From the NCBI GenBank assembly GCA_035541935.1, contig DATKMJ010000022.1:1-34552 (forward strand): a stretch of 34,552 nt of DNA, given 5' to 3'. Shown in pieces: positions 15,076 through 28,793 of the stretch. A program made the position numbers and the translations under genes. The stretch comes from Candidatus Binatia bacterium. GTDB lineage: Bacteria; Vulcanimicrobiota; Vulcanimicrobiia; Vulcanimicrobiales; Vulcanimicrobiaceae. Within the stretch, counting starts at the first letter, position 1. The number at the start of each line of letters is the position of its first letter. The notes under the pieces are model-generated. The model did not search any database. It was not told where the DNA came from and worked only from the letters and a program-made list of their open reading frames with translations.

Positions 15076-16302
15076 CTAGCCCCGCGGGGGTTTGCCACCG
15101 CCGCTGTTCGTCGGTTTGCCGCCTCCGCCGCCGCTCGGCGGCCGGCCTTGGCCGCCGCCTTGCGGCTTGGGCTGTCCTACGTTTGACGGATGACCGAGCG
15201 GGTATTGCCCCGCCGGACGCGCGTGCATCTGGCCTTGGTTCTGCGGACGGTTGGCGCCTTGCATGTTCTGCGGGTGGCCGCCCTGGCCGCCGTTCTTCGG
15301 CGGCTGATGCTGCGACTGCATGCCCTGGTTCTGCGGCTTGTGCGCGTTCTGGTTCTGCGTCGAGACCGGTGGTTTGTTGTTGGTCGATTCCATCGGTTTG
15401 TTCTGCGCGGGCTTGTTCTGCGTGGCAGGCTTGTTCTGCGTTGCAGGCTTGTTCTGCGTGGCAGGCTTGTTCTGCGTGGCGGGCTTGTTCGCCGTGGTCG
15501 GCGCCTTGTTCGAAGCGCCCGCGTTGTGCGGCTTGTAGAGCTTCTGCGCGTTCTGCTTGTCGGCGGTCGTGACCGGGGCGAAGTTCGACGGCTTGTTCTT
15601 CTCGCTGAACGGCTTCTGCGACGCGGTCAGCGACGGCTTTCCTTTGTTGACCGACGCGAGCTGATTGCGATCCTCACCGGCGACCTTCGCCTGATCCTTC
15701 TGCGCGGTCGTCGGCGCTCTGCCGTTCTTACGCGCGTTGATCTGCTGCGACGTCGGCTTCGCTTCGATGCCGCCCTTGCCGCCGTTGTAGCTGACGTTCT
15801 TGCAGTTGTTGCAGACGTTCTTGTTGATGACGGTCTTGTTGTACGTGTTATGGATGACCGTCTTGTTGACGTTGGTCACGGCGGTGTTGTAGTTGTAGTT
15901 GCCGCCGTTCCAGGCGCCCCCGTAGAAGCCCGAGCCGGGATAGCCGTAGCCGTAGTTCACGCCGCCGTAGAAACCGACGGACGCGCCCCAGTAGCCGGCG
16001 TTCCAGCCGTAGCCGCCGCCGCCATAGCCCCAATAGCCGGGCGTCCAGTACAGGCCGACGGCAGGCGGTGCGACCCACGTGCCGGGCACCCAGTAGTAGC
16101 CGCCCGGACCATACGCCCAGTAGCCGGGCGTCCATTGGTAGTTCGGATACGGGCAGGGCGGCTGCGCGTAGTAGGGCAACGGCGGCGGCGGCACGCCGAT
16201 CGTAAAGCCGATGCCGATCGAGAACTGCGCCGGCGCCGGGGCCGGAACAGCGGTAAAGATGAATGCCGCGATCAGCGCGGGGAGCAGTCTTGAGATTTGC
16301 AC
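15076..16302 (-). CDS. Secreted W/Y/G-repeat protein with long N/Q/K/P-rich tail
   Basis: The 408-residue protein begins with a signal peptide (hydrophobic stretch ending APAQFS near residue 25). Residues about 55-140 hold repeated aromatic units such as QWTPGYW, YYWVPGTW, LYWTPGYW and WNAGYWG, typical of YXWGXW/WXXGXW repeat proteins found in cell-envelope proteins of unknown role. A single CxxC (NVCNNC) follows. From about 180 to the end the chain is disordered, rich in N, Q, K, P and G, and includes four exact KPATQN repeats. The start is GTG 16302, with AGGAGG (16307-16312) four bases upstream and a TATAAT box beyond. Base use is less GC-rich than its neighbours because of the Asn/Lys codons. 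Surface or matrix location is inferred. Confidence 0.82.
   Translation of the reverse strand: MQISRLLPALIAAFIFTAVPAPAPAQFSIGIGFTIGVPPPPLPYYAQPPCPYPNYQWTPGYWAYGPGGYYWVPGTWVAPPAVGLYWTPGYWGYGGGGYGWNAGYWGASVGFYGGVNYGYGYPGSGFYGGAWNGGNYNYNTAVTNVNKTVIHNTYNKTVINKNVCNNCKNVSYNGGKGGIEAKPTSQQINARKNGRAPTTAQKDQAKVAGEDRNQLASVNKGKPSLTASQKPFSEKNKPSNFAPVTTADKQNAQKLYKPHNAGASNKAPTTANKPATQNKPATQNKPATQNKPATQNKPAQNKPMESTNNKPPVSTQNQNAHKPQNQGMQSQHQPPKNGGQGGHPQNMQGANRPQNQGQMHARPAGQYPLGHPSNVGQPKPQGGGQGRPPSGGGGGKPTNSGGGKPPRG
15410..15481 (-). repeat. Four tandem 18-base repeats encoding KPATQN
   Basis: Units at 15410-15427, 15428-15445, 15446-15463 and 15464-15481 differ from one another at only one or two positions. 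A fifth, degenerate copy follows at 15482-15499. They keep the reading frame and lie in the disordered tail of the secreted protein, so copy number could vary between strains. Confidence 0.9.
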
Positions 16303-16491: not shown

Positions 16492-16710
16492 ATGTATGAC
16501 GTCGGCGGCTCTCTGCGCGAGGCTATCCACCGCGCGAACGACCAACTGCGCGACGCGCAACTGGCGGTGGCGCGCGCAAACTCCGGTCAAGGCGCCGGGC
16601 GGTTCGCCGATGCGGCTATGGCCAAGACCGCGCAGGCCGCCATCTTTACGGAGGCCCTATTGGCGGCGGAACGCTCGCGCTTCGAGGAGATCAAGGGAGT
16701 GACGAAATGA
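16492..16710 (+). CDS. flgB: Minimal FlgB-like proximal rod protein
   Basis: This 72-residue protein is called from position (first gene, directly before flgC and fliE) and from its C-terminal half. The helix MAKTAQAAIFTEALLAAERSRF resembles the MAKLAENQLRYQALVQ helix that closes FlgB. Normal FlgB is about 130 residues and contains an NIANxxTPGY segment near the N-terminus; here that part and the central loop are missing. If real, it would sit in the first rod layer above the export gate. No Shine-Dalgarno sequence is visible at ATG 16492; a TTG at 16432 would add 20 residues without restoring the missing motif. The stop overlaps flgC by four bases. Confidence 0.6.
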   Translation: MYDVGGSLREAIHRANDQLRDAQLAVARANSGQGAGRFADAAMAKTAQAAIFTEALLAAERSRFEEIKGVTK

Positions 16711-17033
16711 CCGTCGATCTGCTCGACGCGGCCGCAAGCGGCATGGACGCGCAGCGCGCCGCCCTCGACGTCGCCGCCCGCAACGTCGCTGCTGCCGAAG
16801 CCGCCGGTCCGAACGCCGGCTACGATCGCGCCGTACCAATCTTCCGCGTCGTCGAGGGCGACGATCCTCGGGTGGAGTTTGCGGGCACGTCGATGCAGCG
16901 TGGGACGAACGTCGACTTGCTTACCGAGATGATTGCGGTGATGAACGCCTCGCGAGCCTATGAATCGGACGTCTCGCTCTTTGACGTCGGGAAGACGCTT
17001 GCGGAGAAGACGATCGAACTGGAACGGCTGTGA
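16707..17033 (+). CDS. flgC: FlgC-like proximal rod protein, shortened
   Basis: The 108-residue product matches both ends of FlgC: the N-terminal helix DLLDAAASGMDAQRAALDV and the C-terminal helix with NVDLLTEMIAVMNASRAYES followed by DVGKTLAEKTIE. The middle is compressed: the DPxHPDA...GYV loop of ordinary FlgC (about 135-150 residues) is absent. The NNIANxxT motif is reduced to RNVAAAEA. FlgC forms part of the rod that carries exported protein through the periplasm and is itself exported by the flagellar type III machine. The ATG overlaps the previous stop (ATGA), and the GTG of fliE overlaps its own stop. Confidence 0.82.
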   Translation: MTVDLLDAAASGMDAQRAALDVAARNVAAAEAAGPNAGYDRAVPIFRVVEGDDPRVEFAGTSMQRGTNVDLLTEMIAVMNASRAYESDVSLFDVGKTLAEKTIELERL

Positions 17034-17296
17034 AGGTCGAGTTACTCGTTCCCGACGCTCCCCCCGCGTCGACCGGGGACGCCGGCGATGCCGCCGCGTT
17101 CGGACGCGCACTCGACTCCATCGGCGGGGCGCTCGCGCGGGCGACGCGGGCCGAAGACAGCTTTGCCGAGGGATCGGGGTCGCTCCAGGATGCCGTCTAC
17201 GAGCGCGTTCGAGCAGACGTCGCGCTCTCCGTGGCGACCGCGACGGCTCAGCGCGCGACGCAAGCGGTGCAATCCATCCTCAACATGCAGGTTTGA
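17030..17296 (+). CDS. fliE: FliE, rod/MS-ring adaptor
   Basis: The 88-residue protein has the FliE pattern: a variable N-terminus, an amphipathic helix with FGRALDSIGGALARA, and the conserved end LQDAVYERVRADVALSVATATAQRATQAVQSILNMQV (positions about 50-88), in which the family's helix and final MQV are clear. FliE links the MS ring and export gate to the rod. Its place between flgC and fliF is the usual flagellar order. The GTG start overlaps the flgC stop (GTGA). Confidence 0.88.
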   Translation: MKVELLVPDAPPASTGDAGDAAAFGRALDSIGGALARATRAEDSFAEGSGSLQDAVYERVRADVALSVATATAQRATQAVQSILNMQV

Positions 17297-17299
17297 TCC

Positions 17300-18772
17300 G
17301 TGCAGACCGCGGCGCTCTTGCTCGCGCGCTGGAACGCGCTGCCGCGGTCGCTGCGATTTGCGGTGACCGCTCTGCTGCTGGCGGGACTGGCATTCGCAGC
17401 GATCGCGATTGCGCTGCGGCATCCCTCGCGAGTATCGCTCTTTCCCTCACCGCTTCATCCGGAGCAACTCGCCGAAGTCGAGGAGCGGCTGGCTTCGTGG
17501 AACGTTGCCTTCGCGCCGACGAACGACAACGTAGCCGTCGACGCGTCCCGACGCAACGACCTCCTCTTGCGGCTCTCTCTCGCCGGCATCCCGCACGCAC
17601 ATCTCGCCGGTACGGGAGAGGCGCTTTCGACGGTTGGCGTTTTAACGCCCGAGGCCGTCGTCGATGCGCAGACGCGAGCCGGCTTGGCAGGCGACATCGA
17701 GGCGGGATTGCGCGGCATCGAAGGCGTCGACGACGCCCGCGTGATCGTCGCCCCTGCAAAGGAACCCGAGTATGGCGATGCGGCGGCTCATGAGGCGAGC
17801 GCAAGCGTCCGTTTGCGTTTGCAGCCCGGAGCCCAGCTGCCGAAGGCGGCGATTTCGGGCATACGCGCCTTCGTCGCCGCGAGCGTGCCCGGCCTGGCAC
17901 CGGCGCACATCGCGATACTCGACGATCGCGGCGAAGCGCTGCGCGACGACGCTGCGGGCGGCGACGAGGCGCCCGACTTGCAACGTTCGCTGCAATCCGC
18001 GTTGGACAGCGCTTTCGGCGCCGGCGCGACGGTCGTGCGCGTTCGTCCGGAGTACGACGCATCGCTGTACTCGCAGCGCGACGTGCGCAGGATGCCGGTA
18101 GCCGGCGAGGCGATCGAACGAAGCAGAGAGAGCGAGAGTTTCGACGGCGGCGGAAAGCGCTACCGGCGTGTCGACGTCGGCGAAGACCGAGGCAGCGAGA
18201 CGCACGAAGTGGTGGCGCAGGTTCCGGCGGGCGCGCTCGTGCGGCTCTCCGCTGCGGTCTTCGTCGATCGAGCGCGGTCGCTCGATCTGCCGAAAGTACG
18301 CGATCTGGCCGCAGCGACGCTCGGCTTTGACGCCCGGCGCGGCGACGCGCTGACGGTAGAGGCCGTCGCGTTTTTCCACGACGCGGTCTCTCGCAGGGCG
18401 GCCTTCTGGCCGATCTACGGCGCCATCGTCACGTTGGCACCCGCCGTCGCCGTGAGCGTCGCGCTGATCGTCGTTGCCAGACTCGCATTGCCGCCGCTGA
18501 GCGCACTCGCCCAATCGCTGCTGGAACGCTCCGCCGTGGAGAACACCTCGAGGGCGGTCACTGGATACGCGCCCTCTCGCGTTCGGAGCATCCTCGAACG
18601 AGAGCCGCCTCACGCCGCGGCCGCGATCATCAGCGCTCTTCCCGCCGCCACTGCGACGGCCGTTCTGGATCTCTATCCGCCGCACGAACGAGAGGATATC
18701 GTGCGCCGCATGCAGCGGCCGCACTCGCCGCTCGTCGGCAACGCGGACGAACTATTGCGACGCGGTGGTTGA
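17300..18772 (+). CDS. fliF: FliF, MS-ring protein with a FliG-like C-terminal segment
   Basis: FliF builds the membrane ring on which the export gate sits. The 490-residue protein has membrane segments at about 20-39 and 369-396. Between them lie the ring-building motif region (LLLRLSLAGIPHAHLAG, 88-104, and LAGDIEAGLRGIEGVDDARV, 129-148) and a shortened beta-collar. After the second membrane segment the tail (about 424-472) reads like FliG: VRSILEREPPHAAAAIISAL and AVLDLYPPHEREDIVRRM, close to the EHPQxxAxxLSxL / VLxxLP pattern of FliG. A separate fliG, normally next, is absent. The start is GTG 17300, and the gene overlaps fliH by eight bases. The fusion reading is inference from motif similarity. 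Confidence 0.9.
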   Translation: MQTAALLLARWNALPRSLRFAVTALLLAGLAFAAIAIALRHPSRVSLFPSPLHPEQLAEVEERLASWNVAFAPTNDNVAVDASRRNDLLLRLSLAGIPHAHLAGTGEALSTVGVLTPEAVVDAQTRAGLAGDIEAGLRGIEGVDDARVIVAPAKEPEYGDAAAHEASASVRLRLQPGAQLPKAAISGIRAFVAASVPGLAPAHIAILDDRGEALRDDAAGGDEAPDLQRSLQSALDSAFGAGATVVRVRPEYDASLYSQRDVRRMPVAGEAIERSRESESFDGGGKRYRRVDVGEDRGSETHEVVAQVPAGALVRLSAAVFVDRARSLDLPKVRDLAAATLGFDARRGDALTVEAVAFFHDAVSRRAAFWPIYGAIVTLAPAVAVSVALIVVARLALPPLSALAQSLLERSAVENTSRAVTGYAPSRVRSILEREPPHAAAAIISALPAATATAVLDLYPPHEREDIVRRMQRPHSPLVGNADELLRRGG

Positions 18773-19235
18773 CGAGTTCGTCTCGCTCGCGGAGTATCTC
18801 TCGCCGTCCGTTTGCGAAACACCGCCGCCACCGGCGCCCGAGGAGTACCCGGCCGCGCCGCAGATGGGCGCGCGGGACGAACTTCGCGCCGCCAAGCTAT
18901 TCCGAGCGGCGCTTGCCGACGCTCTCGACGTCGCCGTCGCCGTTCTTCTCCGGCGAATTGCGCGCGACGTGCTGGCGCGGGAATTGCAACTGGAGAGGCC
19001 GGACGTGGCCGCAATCGTGAACGCGGCGCTCGAGCGTTTCTCCGACGAAAAGGAACTGACCGTGCGCGCCCATCCAGCCGATCTCGCTCTGCTCTCGCAC
19101 GTCGAGATCGAGCGGATTTCGGACCCCTCGCTGCGATGCGGTGACGTTCTCATCGAGTTGCGCAGCGGTACGATCGATCTGAGCCTCGCCGCTCGTCTCG
19201 AAGAAGCGCTGGCGGCCTGGCCTGCGCCAACGTGA
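18765..19235 (+). CDS. fliH: FliH/SctL-like ATPase regulator
   Basis: FliH-type proteins form the stalk that ties the export ATPase to the C ring. The 156-residue protein is shorter than usual (about 230). It has a proline-rich N-terminus (PPPPAPEEYPAAP, 20-32), then a helix, and a C-terminal domain resembling the V-ATPase E/FliH fold: VRAHPADLALL, RCGDVLIELRSGTIDLSLAARLEEAL. The last part matches the GGCxIExxxGxIDAxxxxQLExL signature with the first residues altered. The call also rests on position before fliI. The start is GTG 18765 inside the end of fliF, and the stop overlaps the fliI GTG (GTGA). Confidence 0.82.
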   Translation: MVDEFVSLAEYLSPSVCETPPPPAPEEYPAAPQMGARDELRAAKLFRAALADALDVAVAVLLRRIARDVLARELQLERPDVAAIVNAALERFSDEKELTVRAHPADLALLSHVEIERISDPSLRCGDVLIELRSGTIDLSLAARLEEALAAWPAPT

Positions 19236-20272
19236 CCGAGTCGCTTTCGCTCGGCATCTGCGCGCTGGGCCGCGCGATCGACGCGCGGGGAATGCCGCTC
19301 GACGGCGGTCCGCCGCCGCGCGGACGCTCCGTCTCGCTGACACCGTGCGTTCCGCGCCCCGACGAGCGCGCGCCGATCGTCTTACCGCTGTGGACGGGGA
19401 TTCGCGTTCTCGACGGCCTCTTGACGATCGGTCGCGGCGCGCGCATCGGCATATTCGGCGGACCCGGAACCGGTAAGAGCACGCTCATCGAAGCGATCGT
19501 CGCGGGCTGCGCGGCCGACGCAATCGTCGTCGCGCTCGTGGGCGAGCGGGGACGCGAAGCGCAAGGCTGGATCGAGCGGCGCAACGCCTGGACGACCGTC
19601 GTCTGCGCGACGAGCGATCGTCCTCCGGGCGAGCGCCTTCGGGCGGCCGGCATCGCCGTCGCTCACGCCGGAGCGCTGCGAGAACGCGGGCTCGACGTGC
19701 TGCTCGTTCTCGACAGCTTGGCTCGGGTCGCTTCGGCATCGCGCGAGATTCGCGTCGCTGCCGGCGAGGGCTCCGGCCGCGCCGGCTATCCTCCCGGTGT
19801 CTTTGCGGATCTCGCGAGACTCGTGGAGGTCGCGGGCGCGCTGCGCGACGGCTCGATCACACTGATCGCAAGCGTCATCCACGACGGCGACGACCGCGAC
19901 CCGGTAAGCGAGGCGGCGCGCTCTCTCCTGGACGGCCATGTCGCGCTTTCGGCGCGGCTAGCGCAAGCCGGACGATTCCCAGCCGTCGACCTCTTGGCGA
20001 GCACGAGCCGCACGATGGAAGCGGTGGCCGAGCCGCACCACGTCCGCGCGGCGCGCGTCGTTCGGCGCGCCGTCGCGCTGTTAGAACGCACCGAAGACGG
20101 CCGCGCACTCGGCGTCGAGCCCGACGATGAGCCGAGTCGCGTCGCAATCGCAGGCGAAGGCAGGATCGAGGCGTTCTTGAGGCAGGGCGGCGGTCCGGTG
20201 GAACCCGCGTCGACCTTACGCGAGCTGGCCGAACTCGTCGGACTCTTGGAGGATGGAGATGGAAATTCTTAA
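19232..20272 (+). CDS. fliI: FliI export ATPase lacking the N-terminal barrel domain
   Basis: FliI is the cytoplasmic ATPase that feeds substrates to the flagellar export gate. The catalytic domain is clear: [28 protein letters not shown] with Walker A at 76-84, [19 protein letters not shown], the Walker B region [46 protein letters not shown] and LLASTSRTM. The protein has 346 residues, about 90 to 100 fewer than typical FliI. The missing part is the N-terminal beta-barrel that helps hexamer formation; the chain opens near the LGRxxDxxGxPLDG segment. The GTG start overlaps the fliH stop, so no room exists for a longer in-frame N-terminus. Confidence 0.9.
20248..20252 (+). promoter_or_regulatory. 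Ribosome binding site deciding the transglycosylase start
   Basis: GGAGG directly abuts the first ATG (20253) but lies six bases before the second ATG (20259). Normal spacing therefore supports 20259 as the start. The site is inside the end of fliI. Confidence 0.7.
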
Positions 20273-20798
20273 CGACATCACGGCAACCGCGCGACGGATC
20301 GAGATCGTCGAGGCCGGGCCGCGGATGGAAGTGCCGGACTTCGAAGGGTACGTAGCAGAAGCTCGCGGCGCCCGCGAGAGGGGCTCGCGTTCCGTGCCTC
20401 GTTCGGCCGTCGAACGGTACGTCGCTGCGGGTGCGACCGCATACGGCGTCGATCCCGCGCTCATCGACGCAATCATTGCCAATGAATCGGGATTCGATCC
20501 GAACGCCGTTTCGCGCGCGGGTGCCGTCGGCCTGATGCAGCTCATGCCGCGCACCGCTGCAGACCTCGGCGTGCGCGATCCGTACGACCCGGCGCAGAAC
20601 GTCGCCGGCGGAACGCGGTATCTTCGGGCGCTGCTGGATCGCTTCAGCGACGTCAAACTCGCACTTGCCGCATATAATGCCGGGCCCGCCGCAGTCGAGC
20701 GTTACGGCGGCATCCCTCCATATCCCGAAACGCAGCGCTACGTGCGCGACGTCATCGCCCGGTATCGCGAACTGCGCTCGCCGTCTTCAAGCCGGTAA
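20259..20798 (+). CDS. Lytic transglycosylase (SLT domain) within the flagellar-type operon
   Basis: The 179-residue protein has an N-terminal stretch of about 50 residues and then a family 1 SLT domain. The catalytic glutamate is E76 in [10 protein letters not shown], followed by [13 protein letters not shown] and [14 protein letters not shown]. These enzymes cut peptidoglycan with formation of 1,6-anhydro-MurNAc. No Sec signal peptide is visible, and the gene sits between fliI and a fliK-like gene. A plausible role is opening the wall for the rod, with export through the type III gate, as proposed for FlgJ- and SltF-type enzymes; this is inference. The start was chosen from the GGAGG spacing. 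Confidence 0.88.
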
Positions 20799-20843: not shown

Positions 20844-21401
20844 ATGATGACGCGACAACTCGAGGTCAGCATTCTTGCCGCTCCTCTCGGAGCCATAGAT
20901 CCGCGCGCGCTCTCGCAAGCCTGGTACGCGGCGCTGCGATTCACGGCACGCGGAACGCAGACGACCGTCGGCGATCCGATTCGCCGCTCCGCCTCCGGCG
21001 GCGCGCCGCATCGCCCCGACCAGGCCTCCGCGGCGCGACCGGCGCGTGCGGCCGCCGACCGCGGGCCGCTCGAACTTCGGAAGCGCTCGCCGGGGGCGCC
21101 GTACGTCGAGTGGCACGCAACCGCTCCGCGGCGGACGGAGAGCGGAACGCTTGCCGTGCGCATCGGACGTGCCTTCACCGATCCGCGGTCGTGCGCGAAA
21201 GGGATTACGTTCTCGATGGGGCGTGGCGACGCGCGCGTTCACGTTCTGCTGCAGACCCGCGGTGAGAAGGCTCATTTGATCGCGCTTTGCCGTCCGGAGA
21301 TACGAGATGCGGTCGAGCGCGCTCTCTCCCAGGCGCGCGTCGCACTCGCGGTGCGAGGGATGGCCTGCGTGACCGAGGGCATCGCAGTACGATGTTTCTG
21401 A
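20844..21401 (+). CDS. FliK-like (hook-length control-type) protein, tentative
   Basis: The 185-residue protein is called mainly from position and from its C-terminal 60 residues. The segment RVHVLLQTRGEKAHLIALCR followed by PEIRDAVERALSQARVALAVRG has the strand-strand-helix layout and the R-x-x-VE-x-AL pattern of the Flg_hook/FliK C-terminal domain. The middle (about 45-80) is disordered and rich in Ala, Arg and Pro, also typical of FliK. True FliK is two to three times longer. If correct, it would help switch substrate class together with FlhB. The ATG at 20844 is followed by another at 20847. The end overlaps the next gene by ten bases. Confidence 0.4.
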   Translation: MMTRQLEVSILAAPLGAIDPRALSQAWYAALRFTARGTQTTVGDPIRRSASGGAPHRPDQASAARPARAAADRGPLELRKRSPGAPYVEWHATAPRRTESGTLAVRIGRAFTDPRSCAKGITFSMGRGDARVHVLLQTRGEKAHLIALCRPEIRDAVERALSQARVALAVRGMACVTEGIAVRCF

Positions 21402-22114
21402 ACCCCGACCTGGGTGCGGCGCTCGATCGAATCGTCGAGCGCGCCGGCGACGTGCGTCGCGCGTATATTTCCGGAGCGGTGCCCGCGCACGACGACGTTG
21501 CGACGGCGTCTTCCGCGTCGGACTTCACGCTGGATCCTCTCGCGGTAACTCCCCCCGAGGGCGCGTACTTCGTGACGACCGACGAACGAGGGCGGACGGC
21601 GTATACGCGCGACGGTTCGTTCGCGCTTCGCAACGGCGGCCTCGTCGATTCCAGCGGGCAGCCGATTTTCGGACGCACGTCGCCCGGCGGCCCGCTCGAG
21701 GCGCTCCGCATCGATGCGGTCGATCGCGCATTGGGAAGGGCGAGCGAGGCTGCGGTCGAGCCGGACGGGAGCCTGGTCTATCGGCGCTACGCCGTGGATC
21801 CGCGCACCGGCGCTCGCGAAGCGCAGCGCATCGTTGCCGGTCGCGTCGCGCTGGCACGATTTCCCGCCGGGACGAGACTCGAGTCGAGCGACGGCAGCCA
21901 CGCGTCGCCGCCTGCCGGCCTCGTTCCCGAGGAAGGTTTCCCCGGCGACGGCCGATTTGCTCGCATCGCACCGATGCGGCGCGAGCGCAGCCGTATCGAC
22001 CTCGACGAGAGCCTCGCGCGTTTGAAGGATGCGTATCTTGCCTTCGACGCCTTGCGGGCTGCGGAAATGGCGAAGAGTCACACCGGTAAGACGGCGATGG
22101 ACCTCTTGAAATGA
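21392..22114 (+). CDS. FlgF/FlgG-like rod or hook-basal-body protein
   Basis: The 240-residue protein contains the central signature of FlgE/FlgF/FlgG proteins: DPLAVTPPEGAYFVTTDERG, then AYTRDGSFALRNGGLVDSSG, then QPIFG (about 47-92). This matches the typical LDVAIEGDGFF...TAYTRDGSF...G.LV...G.PVLG pattern. The C-terminal helix SLARLKDAYLAFDALRAAEM replaces the usual rod-family ending. The NNIANxxT segment of the N-terminus is not recognisable. It is the only rod-family member of this type in the operon. I chose ATG 21392 because residues encoded upstream are arginine-rich and overlap the previous gene. The stop overlaps the ATG of fliM (ATGA). Confidence 0.78.
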   Translation: MFLNPDLGAALDRIVERAGDVRRAYISGAVPAHDDVATASSASDFTLDPLAVTPPEGAYFVTTDERGRTAYTRDGSFALRNGGLVDSSGQPIFGRTSPGGPLEALRIDAVDRALGRASEAAVEPDGSLVYRRYAVDPRTGAREAQRIVAGRVALARFPAGTRLESSDGSHASPPAGLVPEEGFPGDGRFARIAPMRRERSRIDLDESLARLKDAYLAFDALRAAEMAKSHTGKTAMDLLK

Positions 22115-22905
22115 AGGTCCTCGAATTTTTGCCGGTCGCGCGCACGCCGGCGTCGCTTGGATCCAAACGCGTGCGGACGGCTCGCTTCTCCGCGCGCTCG
22201 TGCTTCCCCGTGAGCGCGGCTTGCGTCGTTGCCAACGCAGTGCGCGAAACCTTGTCGTCGCTGCTGGGGACCGCCGTCTCCGTCCGGCTGCTCGAACCGT
22301 CGATCCCGACGCCGCACGCGTGGCGAGCGATTGCGGCCGACGCGCTGCTCTATCGCGTGTGTGGTCGCGTCGTGGACGCCGCACTCGTATTGCGCATGGC
22401 CGACGCGATCGCGTTCGCGGCCGCAGCGTTCGGAGAACCGCCGACGGGCGTGGCGAAGGATCGCACCCTCTCCCCGATGGAGCGCGACGTCGTCGAGCGA
22501 ATCGTCGGCGCGACGGCACCGAGCCTCGCCTCCGTCTGCGGCGCGCGCGACGGGATTCGCGCCGAACGAATTCCGGCCATCGACGGCTTCGTTACCTATT
22601 TCGAAGTGAGCGTCGAGGAGCCGGTCGGCGCGCGAATCGGCGTCGCCGTCTCGCGCGATCCGTCGCCCGAGCCGCGCGGCGCTCTCGATCTGGGACATCT
22701 CTCCGCAGTTCCCGTCACCGTGCGCGCGGGGATCGATCTCGGCAGGGTCTCTGCTGCCGCCGCCCTCGCGAGCCTCGCGCCGGGCAAGATCGTAACCCTG
22801 CGACGCGCTCACCTCGACCGATGCGACCTGCTGATGTATGGAAGGCGAGTGGCCCGCGGATCCTGCGGCGTCCGCAACGGACGATATGCGTTGAGCGTCG
22901 GTTGA
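22111..22905 (+). CDS. fliM: FliM/SctQ-like C-ring protein without the CheY-binding N-terminus
   Basis: The 264-residue protein has a CheC-like middle domain (LSPMERDVVERIVGATAPSL near 119-138, then VTYFEVSVEEPVGARIGVAV) and a C-terminal SpoA domain (about 192-262: LSAVPVTVRAGIDLGRV, LLMYGRRVARGSCGVRNGRY). This arrangement fits FliM or its injectisome counterpart SctQ. Ordinary FliM is about 330 residues and starts with LSQxEIDALL, the motif that binds phosphorylated CheY; here the N-terminus reads MKVLEFLPVARTP and lacks it. The protein would form the cytoplasmic sorting or switch ring with FliN. The ATG overlaps the previous stop, and the stop shares one base with the fliN start. Confidence 0.75.
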   Translation: MKVLEFLPVARTPASLGSKRVRTARFSARSCFPVSAACVVANAVRETLSSLLGTAVSVRLLEPSIPTPHAWRAIAADALLYRVCGRVVDAALVLRMADAIAFAAAAFGEPPTGVAKDRTLSPMERDVVERIVGATAPSLASVCGARDGIRAERIPAIDGFVTYFEVSVEEPVGARIGVAVSRDPSPEPRGALDLGHLSAVPVTVRAGIDLGRVSAAAALASLAPGKIVTLRRAHLDRCDLLMYGRRVARGSCGVRNGRYALSVG

Positions 22906-23168
22906 TGTCCGGCGGCGCGAACGGCGGCGACGCGCAGCGCATGGGGGTGCTTCTGCACGTCCCGCTCCATCTCACGGTCGAGCTTGGAAGCTGCGAGATG
23001 ACCATCTCCGACGTGCTGAAGATCGGGGCCGGCTCGATTCTAGAACTCGACCGTGCGGCAGATCACCCCGTCGAGCTCCTCGTTAACGGACGACCCGTCG
23101 CGCGAGGCGAGATCATCGCGGTTGAAGAGAGCTTCGGACTGCACGTCACCGAACTGCTCGCGCCGTAA
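22905..23168 (+). CDS. fliN: FliN, C-ring SpoA protein
   Basis: The 87-residue protein is almost a single SpoA domain: LLHVPLHLTVELGSCEMTIS, DVLKIGAGSILELDR, then VELLVNGRPVARGEIIAVEE and FGLHVTELL. This is the standard FliN ending. It pairs with FliM at the base of the apparatus and receives FliH-FliI complexes in known systems. The N-terminal extension of many FliN proteins is absent. Its stop TAA shares its last base with the fliP ATG; fliO, often found at this junction, is missing. Confidence 0.93.
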   Translation: MSGGANGGDAQRMGVLLHVPLHLTVELGSCEMTISDVLKIGAGSILELDRAADHPVELLVNGRPVARGEIIAVEESFGLHVTELLAP

Positions 23169-23827
23169 TGCCCACCGATCTTCTGTTCGGCTCGGCGAAG
23201 GGACACGCCACGGTGCCGCTCGACCTTCTCGTTGCGCTAACCGCGATCTCACTCGTGCCGCTCCTGCTCGTGATGTGCACGTCGTTCGTGCGGATTATCG
23301 TCGTGCTTTCGCTGGTTCGTTCTGCGATCGGCGCCTCGGCGCTCCCGCCGAACGCCGTGCTGACGGGCCTGGCGCTCATTCTAACGATGGTCGTTATGGC
23401 GCCGACCGCGCAGCGAGTTCGCAGCGAAGCGCTCGTTCCATATTCGAGGGGCGCGCTCTCGGCCTCGCAGGCGCTGGCGCGCGCGATCGTTCCGCTCCGT
23501 GCTTTCATGGTGCGGCAGACGCGACCCGCCGACGTCGTGCTCTTCGAACGGGTGGCGCGGCGGCGGCCGGAAGCCGTCGCGCGGGCGCCGCTCGACGTGC
23601 TCGTTCCGGCGTTCGCCGTCGGCGAACTGCGGAGCGCGTTTGCGATCGGCTTTGCACTCTACTTACCGTTCGTAGCAATAGACTTGGCGGTCGCGGGAAT
23701 GTTGATGGGACTCGGGATGATGATGCTCAGCCCTCCGGTCGTCTCGCTCCCCGTCAAGCTGCTGCTCTTCGTCATGGTAGACGGCTGGGCGTTGCTCTGC
23801 GGAGGCGTTGCGGCGAGCTTCCGATAA
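23168..23827 (+). CDS. fliP: FliP, flagellar export gate protein
   Basis: FliP (SctR family) forms the core of the export channel. Conserved blocks are visible in the 219-residue protein: LLLVMCTSFVRIIVVLSLVR, PPNAVLTGLALILTMVVMAP, PLRAFMVRQTR, VPAFAVGELRSAFAIGFALY, LMGLGMMMLSPP and KLLLFVMVDGWALL. About four membrane segments fit the family. The cleavable signal peptide of E. coli FliP is absent, as in many other phyla. The ATG shares one base with the fliN stop. It is followed by metF rather than fliQ. Confidence 0.96.
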   Translation: MPTDLLFGSAKGHATVPLDLLVALTAISLVPLLLVMCTSFVRIIVVLSLVRSAIGASALPPNAVLTGLALILTMVVMAPTAQRVRSEALVPYSRGALSASQALARAIVPLRAFMVRQTRPADVVLFERVARRRPEAVARAPLDVLVPAFAVGELRSAFAIGFALYLPFVAIDLAVAGMLMGLGMMMLSPPVVSLPVKLLLFVMVDGWALLCGGVAASFR

Positions 23828-23838
23828 GGAGAGCCCCG

Positions 23839-24735
23839 ATGCGGATCAGCGATGCGCTCGCGACCCAGCGCCCGTTCTTTTCGTTCGAGTTCTTTCCGCC
23901 GAAGGACGACGAGGGATCTCGCCGGCTCCTCGCTGCGATCGAGGCGTTGCAGCCGCTGCGACCCTCGTTCGTCTCGATCACGTATGGAGCGGGCGGTTCG
24001 ACGCGAGCGCGCACGGTCGCCCTCGCCAAGGAGATCCAGCAACGGCTCGGCCTCACCGTCGTCGCTCATGCGACGTGCATCGGCGCGACGCGAGCCGAGC
24101 TGCGAGCGCTCTTCGACGATTTAGCCCGGGCCGGCATCGAAAACGTCTTGGCGCTGCGCGGCGATCCGCCGCAGGGCGTTCCATACGAGCCGTCGCCGGA
24201 CGGATTCGCCCACGCCGACGAGCTCGTCGCGATGCTTCGGCGAAACTACGGCTTCTGCATCGGTGCGGCGTGCTATCCGGAGAAGCATCCGGACGCGCCA
24301 TCGCTCGACGACGACCTCCGTCGGCTCAAGCACAAGGTCGATGCGGGCGCGGATTTTCTCGTCTCGCAGCTGTTTTTCGACAACGCCCACTTCTTTGAAT
24401 TCGAACGCCGCGCTCGGGCGAGCGGGATCGCGGTGCCCATTCTTCCGGGCCTGATGCCGATTACGAACTTCGGACAGATTCAGCGATTCGTGGCGATGTG
24501 CGGCGCCTCGATTCCCCCGAAGTTGAGCGTCGAGATGGAGGCGCGCAAGGGCGACGACAAAGCCGTCGAGGATCTCGGCGTCGCGTACGCCTCGATGCAG
24601 GCGCTCGGCTTGCTCGCGGCCGGAGCGCCCGGCATCCACTTCTACACGCTGAACCGTTCGCCGGCGACTCGCGCGATCGTCTCGTCTCTCCTGGCCGCGA
24701 GCGCGTGGCGCCCCGCCTTTTCAACAGCGCGGTAA
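23839..24735 (+). CDS. metF: 5,10-methylenetetrahydrofolate reductase
   Basis: MetF reduces 5,10-methylene-THF to 5-methyl-THF with FAD, supplying methyl groups for methionine. The 298-residue TIM barrel shows FFSFEFFPPKDDEG (13-26), SITYGAGGSTRART, VVAHATCIGATR, NVLALRGDPPQG, FCIGAACYPEKHPD and DFLVSQLFFD. Length is normal. The ATG has a strong AAGGAG (23826-23831) seven bases upstream, stronger than most sites in this operon, so it may be translated independently. It lies on the same strand between fliP and fliQ and has no obvious role in protein export; insertion into the operon is the simplest reading. Confidence 0.97.
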   Translation: MRISDALATQRPFFSFEFFPPKDDEGSRRLLAAIEALQPLRPSFVSITYGAGGSTRARTVALAKEIQQRLGLTVVAHATCIGATRAELRALFDDLARAGIENVLALRGDPPQGVPYEPSPDGFAHADELVAMLRRNYGFCIGAACYPEKHPDAPSLDDDLRRLKHKVDAGADFLVSQLFFDNAHFFEFERRARASGIAVPILPGLMPITNFGQIQRFVAMCGASIPPKLSVEMEARKGDDKAVEDLGVAYASMQALGLLAAGAPGIHFYTLNRSPATRAIVSSLLAASAWRPAFSTAR

Positions 24736-24763: not shown

Positions 24764-24770
24764 CGGCGTC

Positions 24771-25040
24771 GTGGCGGCCTTCGATGGACTCTTACGTGAC
24801 GCACTCGTAACGACCGCGACGATAGCGCTGCCGCTGCTCGGCGTTGCCGCGCTGGTCGGCACCGCCATCGCCGTCGTGCAAGCGGCCACGCAGGTGCAAG
24901 AGCAGACGCTGACGTTGCTGCCGAAGATCGTTGCGGTCGGATTGACCGTCGCCATGTTCGGCGATACGGCGATGCATCTGCTCGGGGCGCTCTTCGACCG
25001 CGCAATCGCGGCGATTCCGGCCCTCGTTGCAGGATGGTAA
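24771..25040 (+). CDS. fliQ: FliQ, flagellar export gate protein
   Basis: The 89-residue protein has two membrane hairpin segments (about 13-38 and 52-76) with the family core ALVGTAIAVVQAATQVQEQT followed by LTLLPKIVAVGL. This matches the GLxVSxxQAxTQIQEQTLxFxPK signature of FliQ/SctS. FliQ wraps the FliP-FliR core in the export gate. The GTG start was chosen because the family N-terminus is short, and it has no Shine-Dalgarno sequence. It overlaps fliR by seven bases. Confidence 0.94.
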   Translation: MAAFDGLLRDALVTTATIALPLLGVAALVGTAIAVVQAATQVQEQTLTLLPKIVAVGLTVAMFGDTAMHLLGALFDRAIAAIPALVAGW

Positions 25041-25738
25041 GCTGGCTGCTCGTCTTTGCGCGCTGCGCCGGTTTCGTCTTTCGAGCGCCGGGATTTTCGC
25101 ATCCGAGCGCGCCGTCGTCGTTGCGTGTGGGTTTCGCCGCAGTGCTGGCGCTCGCGATCGCGCGGCACGTCGGCCGGGTCGAGGTCCACAACGATTCGGC
25201 GTTCATCTGCGCCGTTGCGACAGAGTTTCTGCTCGGCGGCGTCATCGGCATGACCGCTTCGCTAGCGTACGACGGCGCCTACGCCGGGGGACGAATCGTC
25301 GACGATTACGTCGGCGTCAGGGCGATCGCGCCCAATCTGCAACTCGTAGCGCCGAGCGGCTTCGGACGCGTCTGGTCGCTCGTCTTTACCGGCGGCTTCT
25401 TTCTTACCGGCGCATATCGTCCGGTCGTCTGGTGGTTCGCGCAGAGCTTCGATCGCATTCCGCCTGGTCTGCCGTTGCATGCCGGCGGTTGGGTGCGCTA
25501 TGCGGGCGAGTATGCGGCCACGATCGTCTACGTCGCGGCCCAGATAGCGATGCCGGCCGTCGCCGGCGCGTTCGTCGTTCAGATTGCGCTGGGAGCGCTC
25601 TCGCGCGTCGTCCCCCGTTTCGGCAGCTTCACGCTAACGTTTCCGCTCGCATTCGCGGCAGCGCTCATTGCGACCGCGATCGTCGCGCCGCTTGGAGCGG
25701 AGCGCGCGCCGGGGCCCGAGCTGCCGATTCCGAAGTGA
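25034..25738 (+). CDS. fliR: FliR, flagellar export gate protein
   Basis: FliR (SctT family) completes the FliPQR channel. The 234-residue hydrophobic protein shows FARCAGFVFRAPGF near the N-terminus, EFLLGGVIGMTASLAYDGAY (64-83, matching the EIxxGxxxGxxxxxxFxAxxxAG block) and VQIALGALSRVVPRFGSFTL near residues 182-201. These are diagnostic for the family. It is slightly shorter than typical FliR (about 260). The ATG at 25034 overlaps the end of fliQ, and the stop overlaps the GTG of flhB (GTGA). Confidence 0.93.
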   Translation: MVSWLLVFARCAGFVFRAPGFSHPSAPSSLRVGFAAVLALAIARHVGRVEVHNDSAFICAVATEFLLGGVIGMTASLAYDGAYAGGRIVDDYVGVRAIAPNLQLVAPSGFGRVWSLVFTGGFFLTGAYRPVVWWFAQSFDRIPPGLPLHAGGWVRYAGEYAATIVYVAAQIAMPAVAGAFVVQIALGALSRVVPRFGSFTLTFPLAFAAALIATAIVAPLGAERAPGPELPIPK

Positions 25739-26748
25739 GCGACGCATCGGAGAAGCCGTTCGACGCAACGCCGCATCGGCTCGCGAAAGCGCGAAGGGAG
25801 GGCAACGTCGCGCGCTCCACCGAGCTCGGCGCAAACGTTTCGTTTGCGGCCGCGCTGTTGGCGGTTTGCGGCGCTGCGCCGTTGCTGGGAACGATCGCTG
25901 GGCGCTTGCTCTCGGAAGCCGCTTCGAGTGGAAGCCCGATTCCCGGATCCGGGGCGCTCGTTGCGGTCGCGCTCCTCCCGATCGCCGCCGCTGCTTGCGG
26001 CGGCGCGCTTGCCAACGCGGCACAGAACGGCGGCTTTGTCGTCTCGCCGGTCGTGCTCAAACCCGAGAGGCTCAATCCGATCGAGGGAGTGCGCCGCATC
26101 CTTTCACGCGACACCTTGAACCACTCGCTGCGGGCGACGCTCGCGTTCGTCTGCGGAGCGATCGCGATCGTGCCGATTCTGACGTCCGGCGCCTCCGCGT
26201 TCGTCGGTGCGGCGACGCCGATGCAGGGGGCCGCAGCGGCGTGGACGGCCGCGCGGCAGGTCGCGGCGGCGGCGGCCGGCGTCGGATTCTGTTTCTCCAT
26301 CGCGGAGTACGCCGCCGCACGATCGGCGTGGCTGCGAAAGCTGCGAATGAGTCTCGAGGAGCGCAAACGCGAGACGAAGGAAGAAGAGGGCGACGCCGTC
26401 GCGCGCGGCCGCCGGCGCTCGTTGCACCGCGCCCTCTTGCGCACGGGCCTCGCGCGCGTGAAAGATGCCTCCTTTATCGTTGCCAACCCGGCTCACGTTG
26501 CGGTTGCTCTGGAGTATCGTCCGCCGGACGTCCCCGTGCCGCGGATTCTGGCGCGCGCGCTCGACGACGGCGCGATGCTCGTGCGCCGCCTCGCCGAGCG
26601 GCACGGCGTGCCGATTATCGAGGACGTCCTGCTCGCGCGCTCCCTCTACCGGGACGCACGCATCGGTGAGGCGATTCCGGTGGCGTACTACGTCGCGCTG
26701 GCGGAAATCGTCGCCGCATTGTCGCGTGCGAACGAGATCCGCCGATGA
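25735..26748 (+). CDS. flhB: FlhB, export substrate-specificity switch protein
   Basis: FlhB has four membrane segments and a cytoplasmic domain that normally cleaves itself at NPTH to switch export from rod/hook to filament substrates. The 337-residue protein opens with EKPFDATPHRLAKARREGNV (6-25), the family hallmark. The cytoplasmic part includes the linker RMSLEERKRETKEEEGD and ends with IGEAIPVAYYVALAEIVA. The cleavage motif is NPAH (251-254, bases 26485-26496) in place of NPTH, so the catalytic Asn, Pro and His are present but Thr is Ala. The GTG start overlaps the fliR stop, and the stop overlaps flhA (ATGA). Confidence 0.95.
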   Translation: MSDASEKPFDATPHRLAKARREGNVARSTELGANVSFAAALLAVCGAAPLLGTIAGRLLSEAASSGSPIPGSGALVAVALLPIAAAACGGALANAAQNGGFVVSPVVLKPERLNPIEGVRRILSRDTLNHSLRATLAFVCGAIAIVPILTSGASAFVGAATPMQGAAAAWTAARQVAAAAAGVGFCFSIAEYAAARSAWLRKLRMSLEERKRETKEEEGDAVARGRRRSLHRALLRTGLARVKDASFIVANPAHVAVALEYRPPDVPVPRILARALDDGAMLVRRLAERHGVPIIEDVLLARSLYRDARIGEAIPVAYYVALAEIVAALSRANEIRR

Positions 26749-28793
26749 CGCAGCATAAGCGCGCCGTCTACGCTTTTGCGGCGCTGCTGCTGGCGATCGT
26801 CGCCATCCTGATCGTGCCGTTGCCGCCGTCTCTGCTCGACGTGCTGCTCGGCATCAACGTATTCGCCTCCGCATTGATACTATTGCTCTCGGTAACCGTC
26901 GACGACCCGCTCGAGTTCTCGGCCTTCGCGCCGGCATTGCTCATCGCGACGCTCTTCAGACTCTCGCTCGACGTCTCGGCGACGCGTCTCATACTCACCG
27001 ACGGCGCGTCGCCGGGGGCCGTCGGCGCGATCATCCCCGCATTCGGCGCGTTCGTCGTCCACGGTAACCTCATCGTCGGCCTGATCGTATTCTCGATTCT
27101 GATCACGATTCAGTTCGTCGTCATCGCTAGCGGATCGCAACGGGTAGCGGAAGTGGCGGCGCGCTTCACGCTCGATGCCATGCCGGGTAAGCAGATGGCG
27201 ATCGATGCGGACGTGCACGCCGGCGTGCTGGATGCCGACGGCGCCCGCCGCAAGCGCGAGGCGGTTCAGCGCGAGGCGGATTTCTACGGTGCGATGGACG
27301 GCGCGGGAAAGTTCGTTAAGGGCGATGCGGTCGCCGCTCTCGTGATCGTGGCGCTCAACCTTACCGGAGGAGTCGTCGTCGGAATTGCCTATCACGCTCT
27401 CTCGCCGCTCGACGCGCTCAACACGTTCGCGCTCCTCTCGATCGGAAACGCGCTCGTGACGACGCTGCCCGCGTTCCTTATCTCCACCGCCATGGGCATG
27501 ATGGTGACGAGGGTTGCATCGGACGGCGCGCTGGGCGCGGACCTCGCCGCGCAGCTTCTCGCCCGCCCCGACGTCTTATGCAGCGCCGGCGCGCTGCTCG
27601 TCGTGCTCGCGCTCGTGCCGGCGCTCCCCCGGCCTCTCTTTCTCACGCTCGGCTGCAGCGCGTTCGCCATAGCCTATGCCGCGCAATCTCATCGCAAACG
27701 GCTGGAATCGGCGGCGATCGAGACGCGCGAGCGGGTCAAGCGCAACGCCATGCGGCGCCCGGAGTTGGCGCTGGCTCTCGTCGGAGTCGACGCCGTTACG
27801 ATCGAGATCGGCGCCGATCTGACGCCGTTGCTCGTACCGCCGCTCTCTGAGGCGTTGCTGGATCGTATCGGCGAAGTCCGTCGAGCGCTCGCGGCCGATA
27901 TCGGCATCGTTCTGCCGGGGGTGCGCCTCCGCGACGACCTGGCGCGCGATCCGCTCACGTATGGAATTCGCGTACGGGAACGATTTGCCGGCGCCGGCCG
28001 GCTCGCGCTCGAACGTCTGCTCGTCGTCGCGGACGAATCGATCCTCGCGCGTCTAAACGCCGCAATAGAGCGAGAGCCCGTCTATGGTCTCCCGGCAGCG
28101 TGGATGCCGCCCGAGGCGCGCGAGAGCGCGGTGAATGCCGGCGCGCTCGTCTTCGACCCGATATCCGTCTTGGGATCGCACTTGGCCGAGGTCGCGCGCA
28201 CGCACGCGGCCGCCCTCGTCGGTCGTCAAGAGCTGCAGACGCTCTTCGATCACTTGCGCTCGACCGTTCCAGCCCTCGTTAAAGAAGTCGGCGGCGACGT
28301 GCTGCCGTTCGCTGCGGTGCACAGGGCATTCGCGCTGCTCTTGCGGGAAGGCGCGTGGCCGCGCGATCCAATCGTCGTGCTCGAAGCGATGCTCGAAGCT
28401 CGAACCCACGATCCATGCGAGCTCGCCGAAGCGGCGCGGCGCGCAATCGTCCCCGATCTCCTGCGCCGCCGGGGCATCCCGCAGCTCGAACCGGTGATTT
28501 TCGAACCGGAGCTCGAGCGAAAACTCACCGACGGATGGCGACACGGAACGAGCGCTCTGGAACCGGGAGCGGCGCTCGCTTTGCGCGCGCGGATCGAAGC
28601 GTACGCGACCCGCACGCCGCGCGATCGCGCCGCCGTCGTCTGCACGGCGGCGCTTCGTCCCGCGCTCGCCGATTTTCTCGTTCGTTCGAACGTTCGCGTC
28701 GGCGTCTACGCATACGGCGAGCTTCCCGCCGAGATGGCGCTGGTGCCGAGCGAGGTCATCGCCGACACGGGACCGAACGCCGCCGTCTCATGA
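26745..28793 (+). CDS. flhA: FlhA, flagellar export gate protein
   Basis: FlhA is the proton-driven, nine-subunit platform of the export gate. The 682-residue protein has about eight N-terminal membrane segments, including the FHIPEP block: RFTLDAMPGKQMAIDADVHA (140-159), then READFYGAMDGAGKFVKGDA (176-195). The C-terminal cytoplasmic domain (about 330-682) carries REPVYGLPAAWMPPEAR and VVLEAMLEA, both typical. Length is normal, which contrasts with the shortened rod and ATPase genes upstream. The ATG overlaps flhB, and the stop overlaps the symporter gene (ATGA, 28790-28793). FlhA is the last export-apparatus gene of the operon. Confidence 0.97.
   Translation: MTQHKRAVYAFAALLLAIVAILIVPLPPSLLDVLLGINVFASALILLLSVTVDDPLEFSAFAPALLIATLFRLSLDVSATRLILTDGASPGAVGAIIPAFGAFVVHGNLIVGLIVFSILITIQFVVIASGSQRVAEVAARFTLDAMPGKQMAIDADVHAGVLDADGARRKREAVQREADFYGAMDGAGKFVKGDAVAALVIVALNLTGGVVVGIAYHALSPLDALNTFALLSIGNALVTTLPAFLISTAMGMMVTRVASDGALGADLAAQLLARPDVLCSAGALLVVLALVPALPRPLFLTLGCSAFAIAYAAQSHRKRLESAAIETRERVKRNAMRRPELALALVGVDAVTIEIGADLTPLLVPPLSEALLDRIGEVRRALAADIGIVLPGVRLRDDLARDPLTYGIRVRERFAGAGRLALERLLVVADESILARLNAAIEREPVYGLPAAWMPPEARESAVNAGALVFDPISVLGSHLAEVARTHAAALVGRQELQTLFDHLRSTVPALVKEVGGDVLPFAAVHRAFALLLREGAWPRDPIVVLEAMLEARTHDPCELAEAARRAIVPDLLRRRGIPQLEPVIFEPELERKLTDGWRHGTSALEPGAALALRARIEAYATRTPRDRAAVVCTAALRPALADFLVRSNVRVGVYAYGELPAEMALVPSEVIADTGPNAAVS

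Follow-up and report, generated by a model that had tools for sequence, protein, structure and literature searches.

A FliM-like C-ring protein lacking the CheY-binding N-terminus, in a flagellar-type export operon that is probably non-rotary

The window analysed here, meaning the whole stretch of 34,552 nucleotides, is an entire contig (DATKMJ010000022.1) of a 2.41-Mb genome that is 98.95% complete. Its genes between positions 16492 and 28793 specify the rod, the MS and C rings, the ATPase, a transglycosylase and the export gate, and the metabolic gene metF lies within the operon:

16492-16710, plus strand: FlgB-like, shortened proximal rod protein (tentative; position and conservation only, no Pfam match)
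16707-17033, plus strand: FlgC, shortened proximal rod protein (PF06429 above cut-off)
17030-17296, plus strand: FliE-like protein (position and conservation in homologous operons)
17300-18772, plus strand: FliF fused to a FliG_M-like tail (about 18572-18718), without FliG_C (PF01514, PF08345 and PF14841 above cut-off)
18765-19235, plus strand: FliH (PF02108, 2.2e-11)
19232-20272, plus strand: FliI export ATPase, N-terminal domain missing (PF00006, 2.8e-60)
20253-20798, plus strand: SLT lytic transglycosylase (PF01464, 1e-30)
20844-21401, plus strand: FliK-like protein (tentative; PF02120 matches 2 of the 27 orthologues in the alignment with a best E of 3.6e-4, and not the window's own protein)
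21392-22114, plus strand: FlgE/F/G-family rod or hook protein (PF22692, 1.8e-7; NCBIfam TIGR03506 and flgF under cut-off)
22111-22905, plus strand: FliM-like C-ring protein of 264 aa without the CheY-binding N-terminus (Pfam, AlphaFold2 and Foldseek), with a CheC-like middle domain at about 22189-22680 and a SpoA domain at 22699-22899
22905-23168, plus strand: FliN, one SpoA domain (PF01052, 6.7e-22; NCBIfam TIGR02480 above cut-off)
23168-23827, plus strand: FliP (PF00813; TIGR01103 above cut-off)
23839-24735, plus strand: metF (PF02219, 2e-90)
24765-25040, plus strand: FliQ (TIGR01402 best, under cut-off)
25034-25738, plus strand: FliR (PF01311, 4.9e-32)
25735-26748, plus strand: FlhB (PF01312, 2.4e-68)
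26745-28793, plus strand: FlhA (PF00771, 7.2e-189; TIGR01398 at 593.8 bits vs 474.4 for SctV)

This combination of FliP, FliQ, FliR, FlhB, FlhA, FliH and FliI with rod genes is, as judged from sequence, that of a predicted flagellar export apparatus. The best NCBIfam matches to FliI start at profile positions 71-99; its N-terminal domain is missing from the window's protein and, to judge by the length of the ORF, from those of two close relatives (L094, L096), and other members of the class keep a long FliI ORF. ATPase assembly may therefore be altered in this species.

The 264-aa protein contains a single C-terminal SpoA domain (PF01052, residues 197-263, E 2.2e-6, above cut-off), the next SpoA domain lying in the separate ORF of FliN. 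The Pfam FliM model finds no match in it, so that the assignment of the CheC-like part rests on structure. The AlphaFold2 model, built from a 31-row alignment, has a mean pLDDT of 84 and a pTM of 0.64; Foldseek places Salmonella FliM at full length first (best E 3.4e-11), followed at lower ranks by FliM middle domains, FliY, CheX and CheC, and VIA-align superposes model residues of about 27-190 on FliM middle domains with Z 13-15 and rmsd 3-4 A. By its predicted structure the protein is thus of FliM fold, with a CheC-like domain and one SpoA domain, as the original prediction had proposed. The same prediction had noted that no LSQxEIDALL-type motif stands at the start of the protein, and this extends to its orthologues: a pattern search found the motif in 0 of 32 ORFs from reduced loci and 0 of 30 from named genomes, two sets that share contigs and are not independent. 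The pattern was present in 13 of 15 FliM loci labelled canonical (the labels canonical, other-class and reduced were assigned manually on gene content). One of the two exceptions reads LSQEQIDA, and in the other the fetched stretch ends within the ORF. The 13 include every one of the 11 second FliMs that belong to the window's family and order. Because the pattern does recognise canonical FliMs, the absence of the motif belongs to the gene lineage and not to the search.

From the missing motif the original prediction had drawn that a rotational switch driven by a response regulator is unlikely, which would fit a non-rotary apparatus. The motif is no proof by itself, because syntenic operons of other classes that also lack it keep a whole FliG, but the rest of the genome supports the non-rotary reading well. 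In profile searches of the genome FliG_C did not exceed its cut-off, and the MotB plug, flagellin and CheW were not found, so that the marks of a motile flagellum (FliG torque domain, stator and flagellin) are not seen there; this absence is a profile-search result, and a stator unlike MotB that acts on a part other than FliG_C would lie outside its reach. A FliG_C match on another contig (C34) stays under cut-off (E 0.0057). The genome has only two SpoA proteins, the FliM-like protein and the adjacent FliN, both in the operon; a third, weak SpoA match sits in a malic enzyme. A second, canonical fliM or chemotaxis genes, named beforehand as what would speak against the reading, were searched for elsewhere in the genome, and neither was found. 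The 17 other genomes of the genus (18 in all) likewise hold no FliG_C, flagellin or MotB above cut-off and no CheW. Weak flagellin matches in seven genomes of the genus all fall under the family cut-off, and the one whose sequence was read (L177) resembles an HlyD/EmrA-type membrane fusion protein. It might be argued that the motor still turns, moved by some other stator and controlled through the CheC-like domain in place of the N-terminus. CheC-like domains can bind response regulators, a CheX-CheY complex being among the Foldseek matches, and CheW occurs in 14 of the 48 genomes of the class that have only the reduced system, among them Vulcanimicrobium alpinus, which reportedly moves on type IV pili. 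However, with FliG_C, the MotB plug and CheW all absent by these searches from the window's genus, we regard a turning motor as very improbable.

What remains of FliG appears to be joined to the MS ring. The C-terminal ~50 residues of FliF match PF14841, the FliG middle domain, and are among the best conserved stretches of FliF; the assignment is based on Pfam and not on the iterated FliF profile, because that profile may have absorbed FliG sequences. The structural model of FliF is weak (pLDDT 67). FliF and tail form a single ORF at 33 of 33 fetched loci with a match in families f1 and f2, at 8 of 8 in f3 and at 19 of 21 named loci with a match; none of the 15 canonical loci and none of the 12 other-class loci with a FliF match has the fusion. 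In the window's system FliG would thus survive only as the FliG_M-like tail on FliF. Such a fusion is already known as a kind from Chlamydiaceae, where it is natural and where the cytosolic part of FliF is described as homologous to FliG_M (PMC4768692). According to the same source those bacteria have few flagellar genes, beside an injectisome, and a FliF without part of its periplasmic region, whereas here the entire operon is present, rod, FliM, FliN and gate included. The contact between FliM GGxG and FliG EHPQ is documented by crystal structures (PMC7355467). GGxG is at its expected place in 0 of 32 reduced loci; all 15 canonical and all 14 other-class loci have it somewhere in the FliM ORF, the match reported for L180 preceding the domain. 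EHPQ is present in all 26 canonical and other-class loci where the pattern was found, and the tail of the class's reduced loci reads EPPH in 28 and EPAH in 4. Since both sides have changed together, the contact between FliM and FliG may have been kept in a remodelled form. The window's protein resembles flagellar FliM in its CheC-like middle domain, its one SpoA domain and its position next to fliN and the export gate, and differs from it in lacking both the CheY-binding N-terminus and GGxG and in having as its partner a FliG reduced to a tail on FliF.

The system is widely kept. A FliF homologue is present in 84 of 91 genomes of the class examined, 6 giving no match to the FliF query and one with a weak match (G071) being counted out. 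Among the 84, FliG_C, flagellin and MotB are all missing in 48 and all present in 30, and 6 are mixed. The operon is kept in three families of the class, although at the fetched loci of family f3 only the half from flgC to the transglycosylase gene was found. In 30 named loci, from Eremiobacterota or MAGs without a phylum label and one labelled Rhodospirillales, gene content is kept and order is kept as far as the contigs reach, adjacent overlapping ORFs being swapped in some gene lists by sorting on ORF start. Across three genome pairs dN/dS lies between 0.02 and 0.50 in every comparable gene (fliQ, fliR, flhB and flhA not being comparable in two of the three), which indicates that the operon genes are under purifying selection. 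These data bear on the possibility that the operon is the remnant of a decaying flagellum on its way to loss. In favour of decay are the missing stator, flagellin and FliG_C, the shortened FlgB, FlgC and FliI, and the six genomes without a FliF match. However, a remnant would hardly be expected to persist in three families and in 84 of 91 genomes, to show dN/dS well below 1 in all compared genes, or to be retained in 30 genomes that also have a canonical flagellar set, and decay is in our view distinctly unlikely. As a separate observation, the reduced system is present twice in one genome (G039; loci L120 and L121), which also has FliG_C and MotB and in which no flagellin passes the cut-off.

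A related operon occurs in other classes of the phylum. Of 27 such genomes, 22 have FliG_C, and 12 of these are without flagellin and MotB. The operon has the same gene order, including the transglycosylase and one FlgE/F/G gene, and a FliM without EIDxL (the EIDALL-type motif is absent in 14 of 14 loci); it differs in a whole FliG with FliG_C, in keeping GGxG and EHPQ, and in FliJ-like and FliO-like ORFs. It is in these respects like an intermediate.

The original prediction had also offered a role of the SctQ type, and that suggestion holds as a role but not as an identity. The window's protein shares with SctQ, which docks on the inner ring (SctD) of injectisomes, a SpoA domain and a proposed function as the non-rotating ring of a sorting platform; however, SctQ is described as holding two SpoA domains (PMC4832279), and here there are one SpoA domain, a separate FliN gene and a FliM fold. 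Non-flagellar type III secretion systems (NF-T3SS) are defined, in the account of PMC3459982, by a secretin with the system and by the lack of flagellum-specific rod genes. In the window flgC and an FlgE/F/G-family gene are present, the operon holds no secretin, and the sole secretin of the genome adjoins a Tad pilus gene. A true injectisome, with the 264-aa protein as its SctQ, would find some backing in FliI and FlhB, which score slightly better with the NCBIfam SctN and SctU models than with the flagellar ones, and in trees with an injectisome outgroup, which can place the system outside flagella, a position not rejected by an AU test. However, the flagellar models give the best scores for FlhA, FliP, FliQ, FliR and FliN, and the rod-family genes, the FliM fold and the setting of the secretin leave this alternative unlikely. 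The Myxococcales NF-T3SS, proposed as descendants of the step from flagellum to injectisome, are likewise flagellum-derived and without motor or secretin; as presented in that source they are without FlgB, FlgC and FliE, whereas the window's system keeps its rod genes. Buchnera hook-basal bodies are similar in retaining the base without flagellin or MotAB, but Buchnera is an endosymbiont and, as reported, keeps FliG and hook genes (PMC8109811). The operon could also be the base of another structure, such as membrane nanotubes or an inner-membrane hat complex tied to the flagellar export core, since non-swimming uses of such cores have been reported (PMC9380563). However, nanotubes and hats are tied in that account to an ordinary flagellar core, and a dedicated operon with rod and C-ring parts makes a base of this kind most improbable.

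The trees allow two origins, kinship with the second system of the phylum or a position closer to injectisomes. When FliI, FliP, FliR, FlhB and FlhA are concatenated and rooted on E. coli alone, the window's group joins the other-class system with a FastTree support of 1.0, and among single genes FlhA and FliP, not FliI, give this pairing. With an injectisome and more flagella added, the concatenated tree puts the window's group outside every flagellum; the pairing persists with FlhA (1.0) and not with FliP, FliI or FlhB. In an AU test, made with 1000 replicates (too few by IQ-TREE's own message), four topologies all lie within the confidence set (p 0.31-0.62). One IQ-TREE tree (280 s, without supports) and three constrained ones (80 s each) were not fully searched, the runs having ended early. 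Long-branch attraction is likely.

Taken as a whole, the evidence favours a flagellum base and export pump lacking a propeller, a motor, chemotaxis and the site at which the steering signal would dock, which is probably a protein-exporting machine and not a swimming organ. We consider it rather probable that the 264-aa protein serves as FliM in a flagellar-type export machine that does not rotate and is conserved through the window's class of Eremiobacterota, because the motif is lost in all orthologues, the fold is that of FliM, and FliF is fused to FliG_M at the fetched loci of the class; because FliG_C, flagellin, MotB and CheW are absent by profile search from all 18 genomes of the genus, and the first three from 48 of the 84 genomes of the class with the system; because GGxG and EHPQ have changed together at a known contact; because selection is purifying and gene order is kept in named MAGs; and because the operon is present in V. 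alpinus, a bacterium described as showing no flagella. In the proposed model FliM would dock directly on the FliG_M-like tail of FliF by way of the altered contact and bear FliN; together with FliH and FliI it would make up a static sorting platform supplying the FlhA/FlhB gate. Rod subunits, and afterwards other proteins, may then leave by the gate through a short rod that crosses the cell wall. With its torque domain lost, such a machine would have no use for CheY-P input.

A cultured relative allows the exporter reading to be tested. The genome taken as that of V. alpinus WC8-2 (G025) carries the operon (L111, L146). Its describers report no flagella, no flagellin gene and movement on type IV pili (PMC9758169), and the main text of that description contains no word starting with 'secretion'. 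Injectisomes are thought to stem from flagella by loss of motility parts, with few surviving intermediates (PMC3459982). The related operons of this one phylum fall into three states. Two of these coexist in single genomes, and one occurs in a cultured bacterium reported to have no flagella. It is conceivable, and we put it forward tentatively and with more doubt than confidence, that Eremiobacterota preserve living stages of the passage from flagellum to secretion machine: a motor-bearing flagellum; a second form with a motif-less FliM and a whole FliG, accompanied in many genomes by neither flagellin nor MotB; and the window's form, which has lost the torque domain and carries the FliM dock as a fusion to the MS ring. 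On this scheme the window's lineage may branch near the origin of injectisomes. A literature search on flagellar or type III secretion in Eremiobacterota/WPS-2, judged mostly by title, returned no title on such a system, and within the literature searched a motorless, rod-bearing operon with graded relatives appears to be new. Counting fli and flg genes would further overcall motility, as 48 of 91 genomes of the class have the system with no flagellin, MotB or FliG_C above cut-off.

Several smaller features of the locus may be recorded. In most f1 loci metF separates fliP from fliQ; it was not seen in the three f2 loci. The cleavage-site region of FlhB, usually NPTH, reads NPAH in the window. 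Upstream of the operon, at 15076-16302 on the minus strand, a long low-complexity protein with repeated GYW/WxPG-like stretches is encoded, and similar ORFs occur in 9 other loci. Hook genes were sought through PF06429 only. Another contig of the genome (C49; L212 5147-7706) holds two further, unlinked rod-family genes of 118 and 244 aa as read. A sigma-70 family gene lies near this pair, and the factor is a possible regulator of the apparatus' late genes. A like arrangement of rod genes and sigma-70 gene is found in V. alpinus and in other-class genomes, in one case with a rod-binding FlgJ-type gene.
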